This document shows positions 51,333 through 57,685 of a stretch of 64,000 bases of DNA, piece after piece (positions within the stretch are counted from its first letter, which is position 1; every line of letters starts with the position of its first letter). This DNA comes from Alphaproteobacteria bacterium SS10 (lineage in GTDB: Bacteria; Pseudomonadota; Alphaproteobacteria; TMED2): positions 178,004 through 242,003 of the forward strand of contig JAHCML010000003.1 of NCBI GenBank assembly GCA_019192455.1, written 5' to 3'. Both the position numbers and the translations under genes were made by a program. The notes under the pieces were generated by a model. It did not search any database and had not been told where the DNA came from. It saw only the letters and a list, made by a program, of their open reading frames with translations.

Positions 51333-52124
51333 TTAGCCCGCCTTCAGTTCAGTACCCGTATCGGCACCGCCGTGCTGGAACAGGCCGCGCCACCAGCGCT
51401 TGCCCGCGGGTGTCGTCATGAACTCAATAAATTTGGCTAGTTTGGTAATGCCGTAGGTCATGGCCAGGTAGAACAGGCCCGCCGCAATCAACGGTTCAAA
51501 CGGCGCATAGGTGCGCGCATAGAGGCGCTGCGCCTCCCCGGCGATATCTAGGATTGTGATGGCGGAGACGAGCGCGCTGCCCTTCAGCAGCAAGATCACC
51601 TCATTCGCATAAGCTGGGATTGAGACCCGCATAGCGTGGGGGATCATAATCCGCCGCAAGACTTTGCCCCGCGACATGCCAATAGCCCGGGCGGCCTCAA
51701 CCTCATTCGGTGGTACCGCCATGATGCCACCCCGGATGATCTCTGCCGTATAGGCGGCAGTGTTTAGCGAGAGGGCAAAGACCGCGCAGTAGAATGGCTC
51801 ACGGAAGATCGGCCATAGGATATCGCTCTGCCGGATCGCATCAAACTGGGCGAGGCCGTAATAGATCAGGAAGATCTGTACTAAGAGCGGCGTACCACGG
51901 AAGAAGAAGACATAGGCATAGGCTGGGCCATTGAGCCAGGCCTTGCCAGACAGCCTCATCCCCGCAAGCAACAGGGCCAGGACCATGCCAATGGCCAGGC
52001 TGGCACCCATCAGCTGTGCGGTGGTGACCAGGCCACCAGCCAGCTTTGGCACCGCCTCAATGATCAGCTCAACATCGAGAGCCCAACCGAGCAGGAAGTC
52101 GAGGATTGAGTGAAGGGTTTCCAT
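51333..52124 (-). CDS. Polar amino-acid ABC transporter permease (HisM-type)
   Basis: An inner-membrane permease of 263 residues with about five helices and the signature of the HisMQ/ArtMQ family: FFRGTPLLVQIFLIYYG and the EAA loop EVEAARAIGMSRGKVLRRIMIPHAM. It starts 17 bases after the partner permease and is the last gene of the operon. It pairs with the other permease as a heterodimer. Confidence 0.93.
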   Translation of the reverse strand: METLHSILDFLLGWALDVELIIEAVPKLAGGLVTTAQLMGASLAIGMVLALLLAGMRLSGKAWLNGPAYAYVFFFRGTPLLVQIFLIYYGLAQFDAIRQSDILWPIFREPFYCAVFALSLNTAAYTAEIIRGGIMAVPPNEVEAARAIGMSRGKVLRRIMIPHAMRVSIPAYANEVILLLKGSALVSAITILDIAGEAQRLYARTYAPFEPLIAAGLFYLAMTYGITKLAKFIEFMTTPAGKRWWRGLFQHGGADTGTELKAG

Positions 52125-52141
52125 CTACCGTCCTCCCCCAC

Positions 52142-52864
52142 TCACGATTTAGCCATGGGGCGGACGCCCCGCATGGTGAACCGCTCAAGCAGCTGGATAC
52201 CGGCCATGGAGACGGCGGTTAGTGCCAGGTAGAGCAGGGCAGCAGCCATGAAGAAGGTGAACGGCATGCGGCTTGAACGACCGGCGACATCCGTGGCGCG
52301 GATCAGCTCTTCCAGGCCAACAACCGAAATGATCGCCGTGTCTTTCAGCATGACGAGCCAGAGGTTGCCGAGGGCCGGCAGGGCATAGCGCAGCACCTGG
52401 GGCAGCATGATGCGCCGGAAGAGGAGGAGGCCCGGCATGCCAACGGCGCGCGCGGCCTCAATCTGCCCCTTGGGCACGGCGAGGATGCCGGCGCGCAAAA
52501 CCTCGGTTTGGTAGGCGCCAGAGACGGTGGCCAGCGCCACCACGCCAGCGGCAAATTGGTTGATCTCGATATACTCGGTGTAGCCGATCAACTGCAGGAT
52601 GTTCTGCAGGGCAATGCTGCCACCAAAGAAGATCAGAAAGACAATTAGGATTTCGGGAACGCCGCGAATGATCGTGGTGTAACCCTCAGCTGCACCACGA
52701 AGGGCCGCGTATTTTGAAAGCTTAGCGGCGGCGCCAAGCAGGCCGATGAGGAAGCCAATGGCATAGGAGACGAGGGCCAGCATCACGGTCATCTGCAGAC
52801 CGCGTAAGAGCTCATCGCCCCAGCCTGTATCCCCTATCGCGAAGAGTGCGAGTGTCTCTTCCAT
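52142..52864 (-). CDS. Polar amino-acid ABC transporter permease (HisQ-type)
   Basis: The second permease, 240 residues, with TIIRGVPEILIVFLIFFGGS and the EAA loop QIEAARAVGMPGLLLFRRIMLPQVL. The GVPE variant of the first motif is typical of HisQ/ArtQ. It follows the binding-protein gene after 83 bases that contain a strong hairpin. Confidence 0.93.
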   Translation of the reverse strand: MEETLALFAIGDTGWGDELLRGLQMTVMLALVSYAIGFLIGLLGAAAKLSKYAALRGAAEGYTTIIRGVPEILIVFLIFFGGSIALQNILQLIGYTEYIEINQFAAGVVALATVSGAYQTEVLRAGILAVPKGQIEAARAVGMPGLLLFRRIMLPQVLRYALPALGNLWLVMLKDTAIISVVGLEELIRATDVAGRSSRMPFTFFMAAALLYLALTAVSMAGIQLLERFTMRGVRPMAKS

Positions 52865-52896
52865 CGGTTGGTTCTTCCCTTAAGGCCCAAAGAGAA

Positions 52897-52928
52897 GCGG
52901 GGCGCTGGTCACTTGATCCAGGCCCCGC
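52897..52928 (-). promoter_or_regulatory. Intercistronic hairpin after the amino-acid-binding protein gene
   Basis: GCGGGGC (52897-52903) pairs with GCCCCGC (52922-52928), and CTGG/CCAG extend the stem inward past one unpaired base. No T-run follows. It lies 19 bases past the stop of the binding-protein gene and probably raises its mRNA relative to the permeases, as between pstS and pstC. Confidence 0.65.
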
Positions 52929-52947
52929 AATCCCGTGTTAGCGGTGA

Positions 52948-53754
52948 TTAGCCGCCATAGATGTCAAAGTCGAAATACTTGCTCTGAATGGTCAGGTATT
53001 CGCCATTCTCCCGGATGCCTTTGATGGCGCGGTTGAACATATCGACCAAGTCCTGGTCTTCCTTACGGATGGCAACACCAACACCTTCGCCGAAACCGGC
53101 CCAGACTTTACCGTCCAGGGCTGGGCCAACCATGCCATAGCCTTCGCCATCGGGGGTTTTGAGGAAGCTCTCATCCAGGACGATGCTGTCAGCCAGCAGG
53201 GCGTCGACACGACCGGCGGCGAGGTCCAGATTGGCCTGCTCTTGGGTGTCGTAGTAGCGGATCTCAACCACGCCATCGAGGTTATCCTCGAGGAAATTGG
53301 CGTGAATGGTTGAGGACTGAACGCCCACAACTTTACCGTCCATGGCGGCCTTCATACCGTCCAGGTCAAAGTCTGCGATGGCACCGTCTTCAACTACGAA
53401 ACGGGCTGGGGTCTGGTAGTACTTGTCGGTGAAGGCAACGCGCTTCTTACGCTCTTCCGTGATCGACATGGAGGCGATGATCGCATCGTATTTGTTGGCG
53501 AGCAGGGCCGGGATAATGCCATCCCAATCCTGGGCAACAATCTCACACTCAACCTTGAGATAGCGGCACATCGCATTGGCGATCTCAACATCGAAACCGA
53601 TGAGGTTGCCGGCCGTGTCCTTCATGTTGAATGGAGGGTAGGCGCCCTCAGTGGCGATCCGGATTTTGTCACGGGCGGCGGCATCGCCAGCCATGGAGAA
53701 TGCCATGACGGCGGCGGTCACACCGGCCACGGCAATGGTGAGAAATTTTTTCAT
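52948..53754 (-). CDS. Polar amino-acid ABC transporter periplasmic binding protein (Lys/Arg/Orn/His type)
   Basis: 268 residues from MKKFLTIAV at 53754, which starts a clean signal peptide ending near GDAAA; the upstream open frame is not protein-like. The mature part shows the solute-binding-protein 3 signatures KIRIATEGAYPPFNM, GFDVEIANAMCRYL and the DAIIASMSITEERK segment. These resemble the lysine/arginine/ornithine and histidine binding proteins, but the exact ligand is uncertain. Confidence 0.93.
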   Translation of the reverse strand: MKKFLTIAVAGVTAAVMAFSMAGDAAARDKIRIATEGAYPPFNMKDTAGNLIGFDVEIANAMCRYLKVECEIVAQDWDGIIPALLANKYDAIIASMSITEERKKRVAFTDKYYQTPARFVVEDGAIADFDLDGMKAAMDGKVVGVQSSTIHANFLEDNLDGVVEIRYYDTQEQANLDLAAGRVDALLADSIVLDESFLKTPDGEGYGMVGPALDGKVWAGFGEGVGVAIRKEDQDLVDMFNRAIKGIRENGEYLTIQSKYFDFDIYGG

Positions 53755-53818
53755 CGAACAAAGCTCCTTGTTATCGGTTCGATTAAAGAGATGAAGACCT
53801 CCGGCCAGGGCTGCTTGA

Positions 53819-54655
53819 TTACAGCTGACTGGCCAGGAACTGACGGCAACGCTCACTATCGGCGCGCTCAAAGACTTTTTGTGGTGAGCCACGCTCCTCG
53901 ACCTGACCTTCGTGCAGGAAGACGACCTCTGACGAGACCTCACGGGCGAAGCCCATCTCATGGGTGACGATCAGCATGGTCATGCCTTCCTCGGCCAGGG
54001 CGCGCATGACCCGCAGCACCTCGCCGACCAACTCAGGGTCCAGGGCGGAGGTGGGCTCATCGAACAGCATCACCTTAGGCCGCATGGCAAGGGCACGGGC
54101 AATGGCAACGCGCTGTTGCTGGCCACCGGAAAGTTCAGACGGATAGGCATCGGCCTTGGGGCCAACGCCAACCTTCTCAAGCAGCTCACGCGCTTCCTCG
54201 GTGACCTCGCGCTTAGACCGGCCAAGCACCTGGATTGGTGCTTCGGTCACATTCTCAAGCGCGGTCATATGGCTCCATAGGTTAAAGCCCTGGAACACCA
54301 TGCCGAGGCTGGCGCGAATGCGATCGACTTGTCGGCGGTCAGCGGGCTCGGCGGTGCCGTCGCGGCGCGCGCGCATGCGGATTTGCTCGCCTGCGATCTT
54401 AATCACGCCCTGATCCGGGGTTTCCAGCAGGTTCACACAGCGCAGCATGGTCGACTTACCAGAGCCGCTGGACCCAATGATTGAGATTACATCCCCATCC
54501 GCAGCATTCATCGACACGCCATTCAAGACGTGAAGATCGCCAAAGCGCTTATGAAGGTCGTGGATTTCGAGGGCGGGGTTGGTTGATGGGTTGGTGCCGG
54601 TTGCCGCACCATCCTGATCACCATCTGATCTTACGGCCGCTGTCGTTGTCGACAT
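53819..54655 (-). CDS. Polar amino-acid ABC transporter ATP-binding protein (HisP-type)
   Basis: 278 residues from MSTTTAAV at 54655, with ~33 hydrophilic residues before the ATPase domain. Walker A is GSSGSGKSTMLR, the ABC signature [15 protein letters not shown], Walker B VMLFDEPTSALDPE, and the His-loop VTHEM. The sequence around RCVNLLETPDQG and the 20-residue insertion between Walker A and the Q-loop are typical of HisP. It is the first gene of the four-gene operon. Confidence 0.95.
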   Translation of the reverse strand: MSTTTAAVRSDGDQDGAATGTNPSTNPALEIHDLHKRFGDLHVLNGVSMNAADGDVISIIGSSGSGKSTMLRCVNLLETPDQGVIKIAGEQIRMRARRDGTAEPADRRQVDRIRASLGMVFQGFNLWSHMTALENVTEAPIQVLGRSKREVTEEARELLEKVGVGPKADAYPSELSGGQQQRVAIARALAMRPKVMLFDEPTSALDPELVGEVLRVMRALAEEGMTMLIVTHEMGFAREVSSEVVFLHEGQVEERGSPQKVFERADSERCRQFLASQL

Positions 54656-54856
54656 GCCTGTCCTTATATTCGATTGCCGTGGCTGATGTGGCTCAGCTCG
54701 TCTTTCATCAGGCCTTGGGCTTTGCGCTTTGGACCGGATGACGCTTTCGTTACAGCGCGAGCAGGCTAAGTGGAAAACGTAGGGCTGCAAAGCACTTTTT
54801 GCAGGTGCGAGGCGGCCTCACCCAGCGATCGACGCGTCTTGCAGCGATTAGGGGCT

Positions 54857-54886
54857 TTGACCCCATCATGACGGTACAGGCATAAT
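54857..54886 (+). promoter_or_regulatory. Sigma-70-type promoter for the HExxH protein operon
   Basis: TTGACC (54857-54862), an 18-base spacer and CATAAT (54881-54886) lie about 40 bases upstream of the first of three HExxH genes. Good matches in both boxes. Confidence 0.6.
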
Positions 54887-54924: not shown

Positions 54925-55662
54925 ATGTCGGCATTTGAATGGTTAAGCCAGATGGCGACCGGTGTTGGTCTCGCCCTATCTGGTCAGGCGTGCCCATTGC
55001 CACCGGTTGACCCGGTGGTGATTGTGCGCCCGCTTGAGCGCCCAATGCAAAGCGACTTCACCAAACCCTCCGCCGCGCTGGCCCAGGTGGCACAAAGCCA
55101 GATTACGGCACCGGTGACCGGCACCCAGGCGGCGCTGGGCGGTATGATGACGGTTGAGCTGACGGCGGATACCCGGGTTCAGTTTGGTGGCGCTGATGCC
55201 CGAAAGGGTGAGGGCGCCTGCATCTGGGCATCCCGGGTTGAGGTTGATTTGATCCTGCAGGGTACGCTGTACGTTAACGCGATGTATCAACCGGGCAGTT
55301 GCATGCATGATGCCATCGCAGAACATGAGTTAGAGCACTATCAGCAAAGCCAGCAGGTTGTGCTTCAAGAGCTTTCAAGCGTACAGCGTACGGCAATGGC
55401 TAAGGTTGATGAGATTGGGGTTGTTGGCCCCATGCCGCCTGAGGCTGCACGCCAACAGGGCAAGCCAATTGGCGATGCCATCACCGCCGCCGTTCAAGCT
55501 GAGATCAACCGGCTAAACATCCAACAGCAAGAGCTTCACGCGGCCCATGACAACGCGATCGAGAACCTCGAGACGCTTACGGCGTGTCGCGAGGGTGGTG
55601 GCTATGTTCACCAGGCCCCCGACCTCCAAAGCCTGATCGACGCAGTTGGTGAGGATGGCTGA
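54925..55662 (+). CDS. HExxH-motif protein, putative metallopeptidase (tandem copy 1)
   Basis: A 245-residue protein, first of three tandem relatives. It contains CIWASRVEVDLILQ, YVNAMY, GSC, and EHELEH with His134 and His138 as in zinc peptidases. The C-terminus ends with a helical Gln/Ala-rich region and LTACREGGG. The N-terminus is hydrophobic (MATGVGLALSGQA) but a weak signal peptide, so export is likely rather than certain. The family is unknown to me; DUF922-like proteins share an HExxH but I cannot confirm the link. The next gene starts at the next base. Confidence 0.75.
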   Translation: MSAFEWLSQMATGVGLALSGQACPLPPVDPVVIVRPLERPMQSDFTKPSAALAQVAQSQITAPVTGTQAALGGMMTVELTADTRVQFGGADARKGEGACIWASRVEVDLILQGTLYVNAMYQPGSCMHDAIAEHELEHYQQSQQVVLQELSSVQRTAMAKVDEIGVVGPMPPEAARQQGKPIGDAITAAVQAEINRLNIQQQELHAAHDNAIENLETLTACREGGGYVHQAPDLQSLIDAVGEDG

Positions 55663-56373
55663 GTGACTGCGTGGATCGCCGGTTTAGGTCTTTTGACAAT
55701 TGGCATGGTCATGGTCCCGGGCGCCCAGGCAAAAGCGCAGGGAACATTCACCTGCCCTGAAACGCCGGCGGCAACCTACACTCTCGCCATCGATAGCCAA
55801 GACGTACAGATCATCGAAAATGCGGGGCCAGAGCAGCTGCGGGGCCTGTATGATCAACACAACCGCGCCCATGGCCATTACGGCAGCAGCCCCGCCGATA
55901 ACCAGCATGCCGTGATTGGCGGCCTGCACCATGGCGAACTTCGCCTGCGCAGTGAGATTAAGATGCTGCAGGCCACACGGTCGGATTCATCAATGGCCTG
56001 TCTTGGTGTTCAAGTGCTTGAGCTGTCTTTGGTTTATAAGCCGGTGATTTACATCTCTCGGACTAAGCCCAGAGGCAGTTGCGAGTATCAGGCTGCCCTA
56101 CAACATGAATATAAGCACCTGACAACCGACCTCAGAATTCTACGTGATTGGGTGCCTAGTTTACGAGATGCGGCAAAGGCCGGTCTCGATAAGGTGGCTC
56201 AGCCGATGCGGGTAAGGGCAACTGATCTGGCCCGGGCCAGGGATGACATTCAACGGCGGGTTGTGGCACCGCTCGATCGGGTGATGGATCAGGTGGAAGC
56301 AGAGCGTGATCGCCAGCAAAGTGCCATCGATACGCCGGAAGAGTATGAGAGGGTGGCGCGCCAATGTCCTTGA
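55663..56373 (+). CDS. HExxH-motif exported protein, putative metallopeptidase (tandem copy 2)
   Basis: 236 residues from a GTG that abuts the previous stop. A signal peptide (WIAGLGLLTIGMVMVPGAQA) is clear. The core is CLGVQVLELSLVYKPVIYIS, GSCEYQAALQHEYKH with His148, then TTDLRILRDW. The two core cysteines may form a disulfide. The C-terminal pattern QSAIDTPEEYERVARQC is repeated in copy 3. The third zinc ligand cannot be assigned; an Asp three residues past the second His (HLTTD) is shared with copy 3. Confidence 0.78.
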   Translation: MTAWIAGLGLLTIGMVMVPGAQAKAQGTFTCPETPAATYTLAIDSQDVQIIENAGPEQLRGLYDQHNRAHGHYGSSPADNQHAVIGGLHHGELRLRSEIKMLQATRSDSSMACLGVQVLELSLVYKPVIYISRTKPRGSCEYQAALQHEYKHLTTDLRILRDWVPSLRDAAKAGLDKVAQPMRVRATDLARARDDIQRRVVAPLDRVMDQVEAERDRQQSAIDTPEEYERVARQCP

Positions 56374-57044
56374 GAATGTTTGGGATCACAATCGCTGCGA
56401 TGGCCTTGGCAGCAATCGGTGTAATGGCGCCCAGCCAAGCCCAGGCCAGCTGCTTGATGGATGGTGTGCCCCAGGCACGGGTGTTGCTAGACATCGCACC
56501 AACCCATACCAACACGACGCGAAGCTTTGACCAGCTAACCCGTATACCTAACAACACTCGGCTGGGCCTGACCGAGGGGCACCAGGTTGGCGGTCTGTCG
56601 GTGGGTGATATCCGGCTTGCCAGTCAGATTGAGTTTGGCAACTCAGTAAACTTCTTCTCCGGTGACACATGCCTTTGGGTTCGTGGCTTAACGATCAATA
56701 TCTCGCTCGAACCTGTGATCTATATCGCCCGCGAGCTGCAGCGTGGCAGTTGCCGGTATCGAACTTTGTTAGAGCATGAGCAGCGCCATGTGGCCGCCGA
56801 TCGTCGTCTGCTTGAAACCTATCAGAGCCGCATTGAGACAGAGCTAGGGCTTGCCCTGCTAGAGATGGGGGCAACCGGTCCCGTACCTGTCTCACTAGCA
56901 TCACAAGTACAGCAGGAGCTTTCGGCTGAAGTGGGGCGTACGGTTGATGCGGCCATGGAAGAGTTTGCGCAAGCTAGAGACCGGGCCCAGCAGGCGATTG
57001 ATAACCCAGCTGAGTATGCTCGTCTTAGCCGGGCTTGCAGCTAG
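56364..57044 (+). CDS. HExxH-motif exported protein, putative metallopeptidase (tandem copy 3)
   Basis: 226 residues, overlapping the end of copy 2 by 10 bases. A signal peptide (MFGITIAAMALAAIGVMA, then SQAQA) is clear. The core is CLWVRGLTINISLEPVIYIA, GSCRYRTLLEHEQRH with His138, then VAADRRLLETY. It ends QQAIDNPAEYARLSRAC. It is closer to copy 2 than to copy 1. It is convergent with ccmI. A role in the envelope, perhaps proteolysis, is inference from the motif and signal peptide only. Confidence 0.78.
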   Translation: MSLRMFGITIAAMALAAIGVMAPSQAQASCLMDGVPQARVLLDIAPTHTNTTRSFDQLTRIPNNTRLGLTEGHQVGGLSVGDIRLASQIEFGNSVNFFSGDTCLWVRGLTINISLEPVIYIARELQRGSCRYRTLLEHEQRHVAADRRLLETYQSRIETELGLALLEMGATGPVPVSLASQVQQELSAEVGRTVDAAMEEFAQARDRAQQAIDNPAEYARLSRACS

Positions 57045-57052
57045 GTTATCCC

Positions 57053-57685
57053 CTACTGATCAGTGGTGCCGAGGCGGTCTCGCAGGCCTGGCAGCCAGGG
57101 TTCATCGCCGTTAGCCTCAGCTAACAGCGCCTCCCAGCGCTCCCTGGCGGCATCCAATTTGCCCGCCTGCCATAGCGCCAGCCCAGCATAGAACCGCGCA
57201 CCCTGTTGGTCCGGCTCAACCCGTAGGATGTCATCGATCAGATCAATCGCTTCCGGCGTTACCAGCCCTTCCTCACTGGCTATCAGCGCCTCAAGCTGGG
57301 CGAGCCTGAGGGCCGTATTGCCGCCGCTAAGATCTGCCGCCCGTGCAAAGGCGGCAGCGGCATCCCGGTGCCGTTGAAGTTGGGCCCAAGCCTGCCCCAA
57401 TAACGCCCAGCCTGCCGCATCCCCTCGTTCATTGCCCAGATTGGCTGCCATCTCTTCGGCGGCAGCAACCATCATGGCCTGTTGGTTTAGGAAGCCCTGA
57501 TCCCGGCCAGCGAGTGGCTGATCAGGTAAATCCGGGTTACCGGCCCAGAGATAGATGCCAATCGCAGCCAAGGGCACCGTGGCGATGATCACCATGCTAG
57601 CGGTTTTCTGACGCTTCAGTGGGGCCGCCACAACGGCACAAACCAAGGCAGAAATGACAGCGGCGGCAATCCAGAGGCTACACAT
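57053..57685 (-). CDS. ccmI: Cytochrome c maturation protein CcmI (TPR domain)
   Basis: It holds apocytochrome c for haem attachment with CcmF-CcmH. It has 210 residues, with two N-terminal hydrophobic helices and three to four TPR-like repeats (AAGWALLGQAWAQLQRHRDAAAAFARA, ARFYAGLALWQAGKLDAARERWEALL). Many alphaproteobacterial CcmI proteins exceed 350 residues, so this is a short form. It is the last gene of the ccm operon, 18 bases after ccmH. Confidence 0.85.
   Translation of the reverse strand: MCSLWIAAAVISALVCAVVAAPLKRQKTASMVIIATVPLAAIGIYLWAGNPDLPDQPLAGRDQGFLNQQAMMVAAAEEMAANLGNERGDAAGWALLGQAWAQLQRHRDAAAAFARAADLSGGNTALRLAQLEALIASEEGLVTPEAIDLIDDILRVEPDQQGARFYAGLALWQAGKLDAARERWEALLAEANGDEPWLPGLRDRLGTTDQ

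Follow-up and report, generated by a model that had tools for sequence, protein, structure and literature searches.

In Asp-zincins (MEROPS subclan MA(D)) the HExxH site is part of the motif HEXXHXXGXXD, with the Asp 6 residues after the second His (PMC3890501). A second group of HExxH proteins, DUF922 (PF06037), has been predicted from its fold to function as zincins (PMC3650047). Beyond this fold prediction and a mention in the proteomics of Brucella vesicles (PMC11788153), we found nothing on DUF922 in the literature searched. The residues invariant in 22 aligned DUF922 proteins are P103, H129, E130, H133, and D183, and the DUF922 model has no match in the PDB by fold or by sequence.

We analysed a window of 64,000 nucleotides from Alphaproteobacteria bacterium SS10, in which three open reading frames at 54925-57044, all on the + strand and adjoining or overlapping, encode HExxH proteins (Table 1). 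A search of the same genome with copy 3 returned copy 2 (E 5.7e-23), copy 1 (E 2.3e-11), and a fourth paralogue on another contig (G000:C4:264726, E 3.4e-19). The 16S rRNA of this genome, at 90.4% to Ensifer, places it in the Alphaproteobacteria. By this sequence comparison the three window genes are true paralogues, and the sequence-only reading of an operon-like array of three related HExxH proteins is borne out by the layout of the reading frames and the paralogue search. The same reading saw a good promoter before copy 1. Such a promoter is plausible, since the candidate site matches 10 of 12 consensus positions, but shuffles yield 1.3 such sites in the region, so that about one is expected by chance. 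On the - strand, head to head with copy 1, lies an amino-acid ABC transporter cluster (window 51333-54790) made up of two permeases, a binding protein, and an ATPase.

Table 1. Positions of the three paralogues, their putative active-site residues, and the candidate promoter in the window.
Feature	Coordinates	Strand	Remarks
Possible sigma-70 promoter TTGACC-18-CATAAT	54857..54886	+	38 nt upstream of copy 1
Copy 1	54925..55662	+	245 aa; the most diverged copy; C-terminal extension
HELEH of copy 1	55324..55338	+	residues 134-138
Tail Asp D209 of copy 1	55549..55551	+	candidate third zinc ligand
Copy 2	55663..56373	+	236 aa; GTG start directly after copy 1 stop
HEYKH of copy 2	56104..56118	+	residues 148-152
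Tail Asp D223 of copy 2	56329..56331	+	in DTPEEYERVARQC
Copy 3	56364..57044	+	226 aa; 10 nt overlap with copy 2; modelled copy
HEQRH of copy 3	56775..56789	+	residues 138-142, near start of predicted helix 130-168
D213 of copy 3	57000..57002	+	candidate third zinc ligand; end of predicted helix 176-212
C225 of copy 3	57036..57038	+	predicted partner of C130 beside the HExxH helix; paired loss

Residues common to all three copies include C99, Y116, G124-S125-C126, H134, E135, H138, D209, and C221 (copy 1 numbering). As had been noticed, copies 2 and 3 clearly carry the tail motif D-x-P-x-E-Y-x-R-x4-C, of which copy 1 retains just the Asp, one Glu, and the Cys. Signal-peptide-like N-termini are clear in copies 2 and 3, upholding the earlier claim that at least two of the proteins are exported, and weaker in copy 1. 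A hydrophobic N-terminal stretch is found in 105 of the 108 family members collected, and all three copies are probably exported.

No Pfam or NCBIfam family matched the window copies, and an alignment of 76 family sequences compared with NCBIfam, PHROG, and PADLOC gave scattered weak matches only. The family had gone unrecognised when the sequence was first read, and our searches of Pfam, NCBIfam, PHROG, PADLOC, and the PDB likewise yielded no clear match to any characterised family. HExxH families in Pfam, such as eCIS_core and Peptidase_M48, have HExxH alone in common with the new family; they match one or two members weakly (E about 0.01), with no consistent relation. A streptococcal exotoxin retrieved by the PDB sequence search (E 0.21) matches a short stretch around HExxH and was taken as chance.

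The family is nonetheless widespread. With a four-row profile, 68 of the 385 genomes searched in the class contained relatives. An enlarged profile was positive in 52 of 289 genomes when the class was sampled anew, and in 32 of 398 genomes sampled across the phylum, 24 of these outside Alphaproteobacteria. A contig search with the alignment of the three copies gave no relatives, and one with copy 3 matched a single Rhodospirillaceae contig. Phage origin was rejected after one scan of viral contigs with four seed sequences gave no match, plasmid copies amounted to none or one weak Rhizobium match, and PADLOC families gave no match that would indicate a defence system. About one in six of the alphaproteobacterial genomes sampled carries this family, including some as small as about 0.9 Mb, and it also occurs in other classes of the phylum; it has no name, structure, or assay.

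We counted residues over the 108 collected members, using copy 3 numbering. H138 and H142 are each conserved in 107 members, E139 in 105, and Y218 in 93. D213, which lies 71 residues downstream of the second His, is conserved in 107, and sequence identity among members is otherwise about 15-30%. A closer Asp at position 146 (HExxH-x3-D) was rejected as third ligand: only 29 of 108 members have Asp there, and Asn, Tyr, His, or Leu is frequent in its place. Each of four cysteines is kept in 97-104 of the 108 members. L084 has lost both C30 and C103, while copy 2 of L036 and, once more, the third copies of L137-L139 have lost both C130 and C225. Because the cysteines are lost in pairs, we predict the disulfides C30-C103 and C130-C225.

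Natural variants also bear on the metal site. In two members from sister genomes the Glu alone is replaced (by F or Q), leaving His, His, and Asp intact; in the tree both Glu-less copies sit on long branches, each beside an intact paralogue. Conversely, in L155:6606-7430 (E 7.5e-4), a marginal and degenerate relative that neighbours an intact copy, both HExxH and the tail Asp are gone, and three of the four cysteines (C30, C130, and C225) remain. This joint loss, in one sequence and one alignment, would fit the Asp being a metal ligand. Taken together, the Glu-only losses and the joint loss of HExxH and Asp suggest a metal held by His, His, and Asp, with Glu as the catalyst. The sequence-only reading had concluded that activity is retained in every copy of the window. 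Both His and the Glu are indeed kept in all three, but the conclusion goes too far, since pseudoenzymes of the family exist elsewhere and copy 1 has lost the tail Tyr, carrying Asn in its place.

We modelled copy 3 with AlphaFold from 76 sequences (pLDDT 90, pTM 0.80). The model has strands at 37-44, 77-96, and 101-121 and helices at 130-168, with HExxH near its start, at 176-212, followed by D213, and at 215-224. The two His, whose proximity the first reading had presupposed, lie one helical turn apart within one predicted helix. The two long helices are joined by a short turn and are therefore read as antiparallel, which would return D213 to the level of HExxH; the predicted architecture combines them with a long beta hairpin. 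From the order and length of these model elements, D213 should lie near H138. A Foldseek search against the PDB gave a best E of 0.12 with no zincin among the matches listed, and a viral fold library contained no match to the copy 3 model. The fold is thus unmatched in the PDB, so peptidase activity cannot be inferred by structural homology.

Asp-zincins resemble the new family in HExxH and in the probable use of Asp as third ligand, and gave no structural match to its model. Their Asp follows within the same short motif, whereas that of the new family ends another helix, and the window's HEQRHVAADRR and its relatives lack the G-x-x-D that follows HExxH in Asp-zincins. In the best-supported view the new family would work like a zincin without necessarily belonging to clan MA.

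DUF922, which the first reading had proposed for comparison, proved an apt choice. Using hhalign, the new family matches DUF922 with E values from 1e-7 to 3e-6. Controls scored less well: among 40 column shuffles in which the HExxH block was retained the best E was 1.8e-4, and reversed profiles gave 0.04 or worse. Masking HExxH raises the E value to 7e-5 and leaves 33 matched columns in the region of the tail Asp. Both families are probably exported and combine HExxH with a distal invariant Asp, the two being aligned by hhalign. In both, HExxH is predicted to lie in a long helix that follows a long beta hairpin, with a Cys where the second hairpin strand begins and the Asp where the return helix ends. 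The AlphaFold models of the two families, compared by their predicted elements, show these in the same order.

The profile similarity, the shared H, E, H, and D, this common order, and the weak PF06037 matches of 11 of 76 relatives (best E 2.7e-4) could also mean that the proteins are divergent DUF922 members, forming a new branch of a known family. Such a classification would be compatible with the function proposed below, but we consider it rather unlikely. The window copies do not match PF06037 at its curated cut-off of 27 bits, and a PF06037 search of their own genome finds nothing. Elsewhere, the PF06037 search recovers none of the new family's loci, true DUF922 loci being at other genomic places. 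Where the second hairpin strand gives way to the HExxH helix, DUF922 has an invariant Pro, and the new family has no conserved Pro there. The cysteine pattern also differs, DUF922 having C87 and C157 in place of the predicted C30-C103 and C130-C225 pairs; of the new family's four near-invariant cysteines, only that of the second hairpin strand has a DUF922 counterpart. In the tail, the Tyr of the new family is His in many DUF922 members. The profile comparisons therefore support the new family as a distant sister of DUF922, and only that distant relation. Tentatively, the two families may together represent a metallopeptidase type with an unsolved fold, in which a hairpin precedes two antiparallel helices, HExxH lies near the start of the first helix, an Asp ligand ends the second, and a disulfide joins the two ends of the site. 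If the fold is new, it would provide a second solution for presenting HExxH.

We propose, with a probability of roughly 60%, that the three copies, encoded by a small operon, are exported, disulfide-stabilised zinc peptidases in which His, His, and a distal Asp bind the metal and Glu acts as the base. After crossing the inner membrane by means of its signal peptide, each protein would fold in the periplasm into the hairpin and the two antiparallel helices of the model. D213 would be brought to the same end of the bundle as H138 and H142 by the return helix together with the C130-C225 disulfide, and the three residues (copy 3 numbering) would hold zinc there. E139 would activate water, and the transition state is probably stabilised by Y218 in members that have this residue. 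The copies, multiplied by tandem duplication and since diverged, would probably have different periplasmic or envelope proteins as substrates. The missing tail Tyr and weak signal peptide of copy 1 count against this proposal, as do the unmatched fold and the distance of the Asp from the second His, and a conserved HExxH does not by itself prove proteolysis.

The proteins might instead be exported metal binders without peptidase activity. They could, for instance, bind zinc in the periplasm or have a structural or chaperone-like role, with the site kept for metal. This would accommodate the lack of a fold match to a known peptidase, the existence of Glu-less members with His, His, and Asp, and the neighbourhoods of about 60 loci, where no immediate neighbour qualifies as a partner gene pointing to a substrate. 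Metal binding alone needs no Glu, however, and the retention of this residue in 105 of 108 members at such low identity, together with the position of both Glu-less copies on long branches beside intact paralogues, makes this explanation unlikely. HExxH sites serve other amide hydrolases too, and a small clade (L035, L054, and L056) lies beside an N-acetylmuramoyl-alanine amidase-like gene, which might mean that the enzymes hydrolyse something other than protein, or a cell-wall component such as peptidoglycan stem peptides. This is very unlikely given that the amidase-like neighbour occurs in only 3 of about 60 loci and the neighbours are otherwise unrelated.

For the zinc peptidase proposal, the family offers exact candidate ligands, disulfides, and catalytic residues, with natural pseudoenzymes as controls, and many exported proteins now labelled 'hypothetical' could be annotated as probable zinc peptidases.

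The neighbours of the roughly 60 loci are heterogeneous and vary by lineage. The most consistent neighbour is another gene of the family, whose members often occur as tandem pairs, and in ten loci, the window's included, family copies are spaced within 43 nt. Multiplication through tandem duplication is the best reading of these arrangements. A recent local triplication in the window is unsupported, as its three copies do not group in the tree, whose deep forks are weak.

In three families of the class (window 56364-57685, L050, and L051) a family gene and ccmI/cycH, which ends a cytochrome c maturation cluster, stand tail to tail. In ten loci (L061, L069, L072, L073, L077, L083, L086, L087, L091, and L095) the family gene adjoins an xthA-like (exonuclease III-like) gene, mostly head to head. 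We read both positions as inherited location and not as a sign of function. An independent triple tandem array is found in three genomes of one family (L137:5051-7828, L138:5558-8478, and L139:4105-7309); its third copies carry a long C-terminal extension, which in two of the three contains an apparent second, degenerate copy of the domain.
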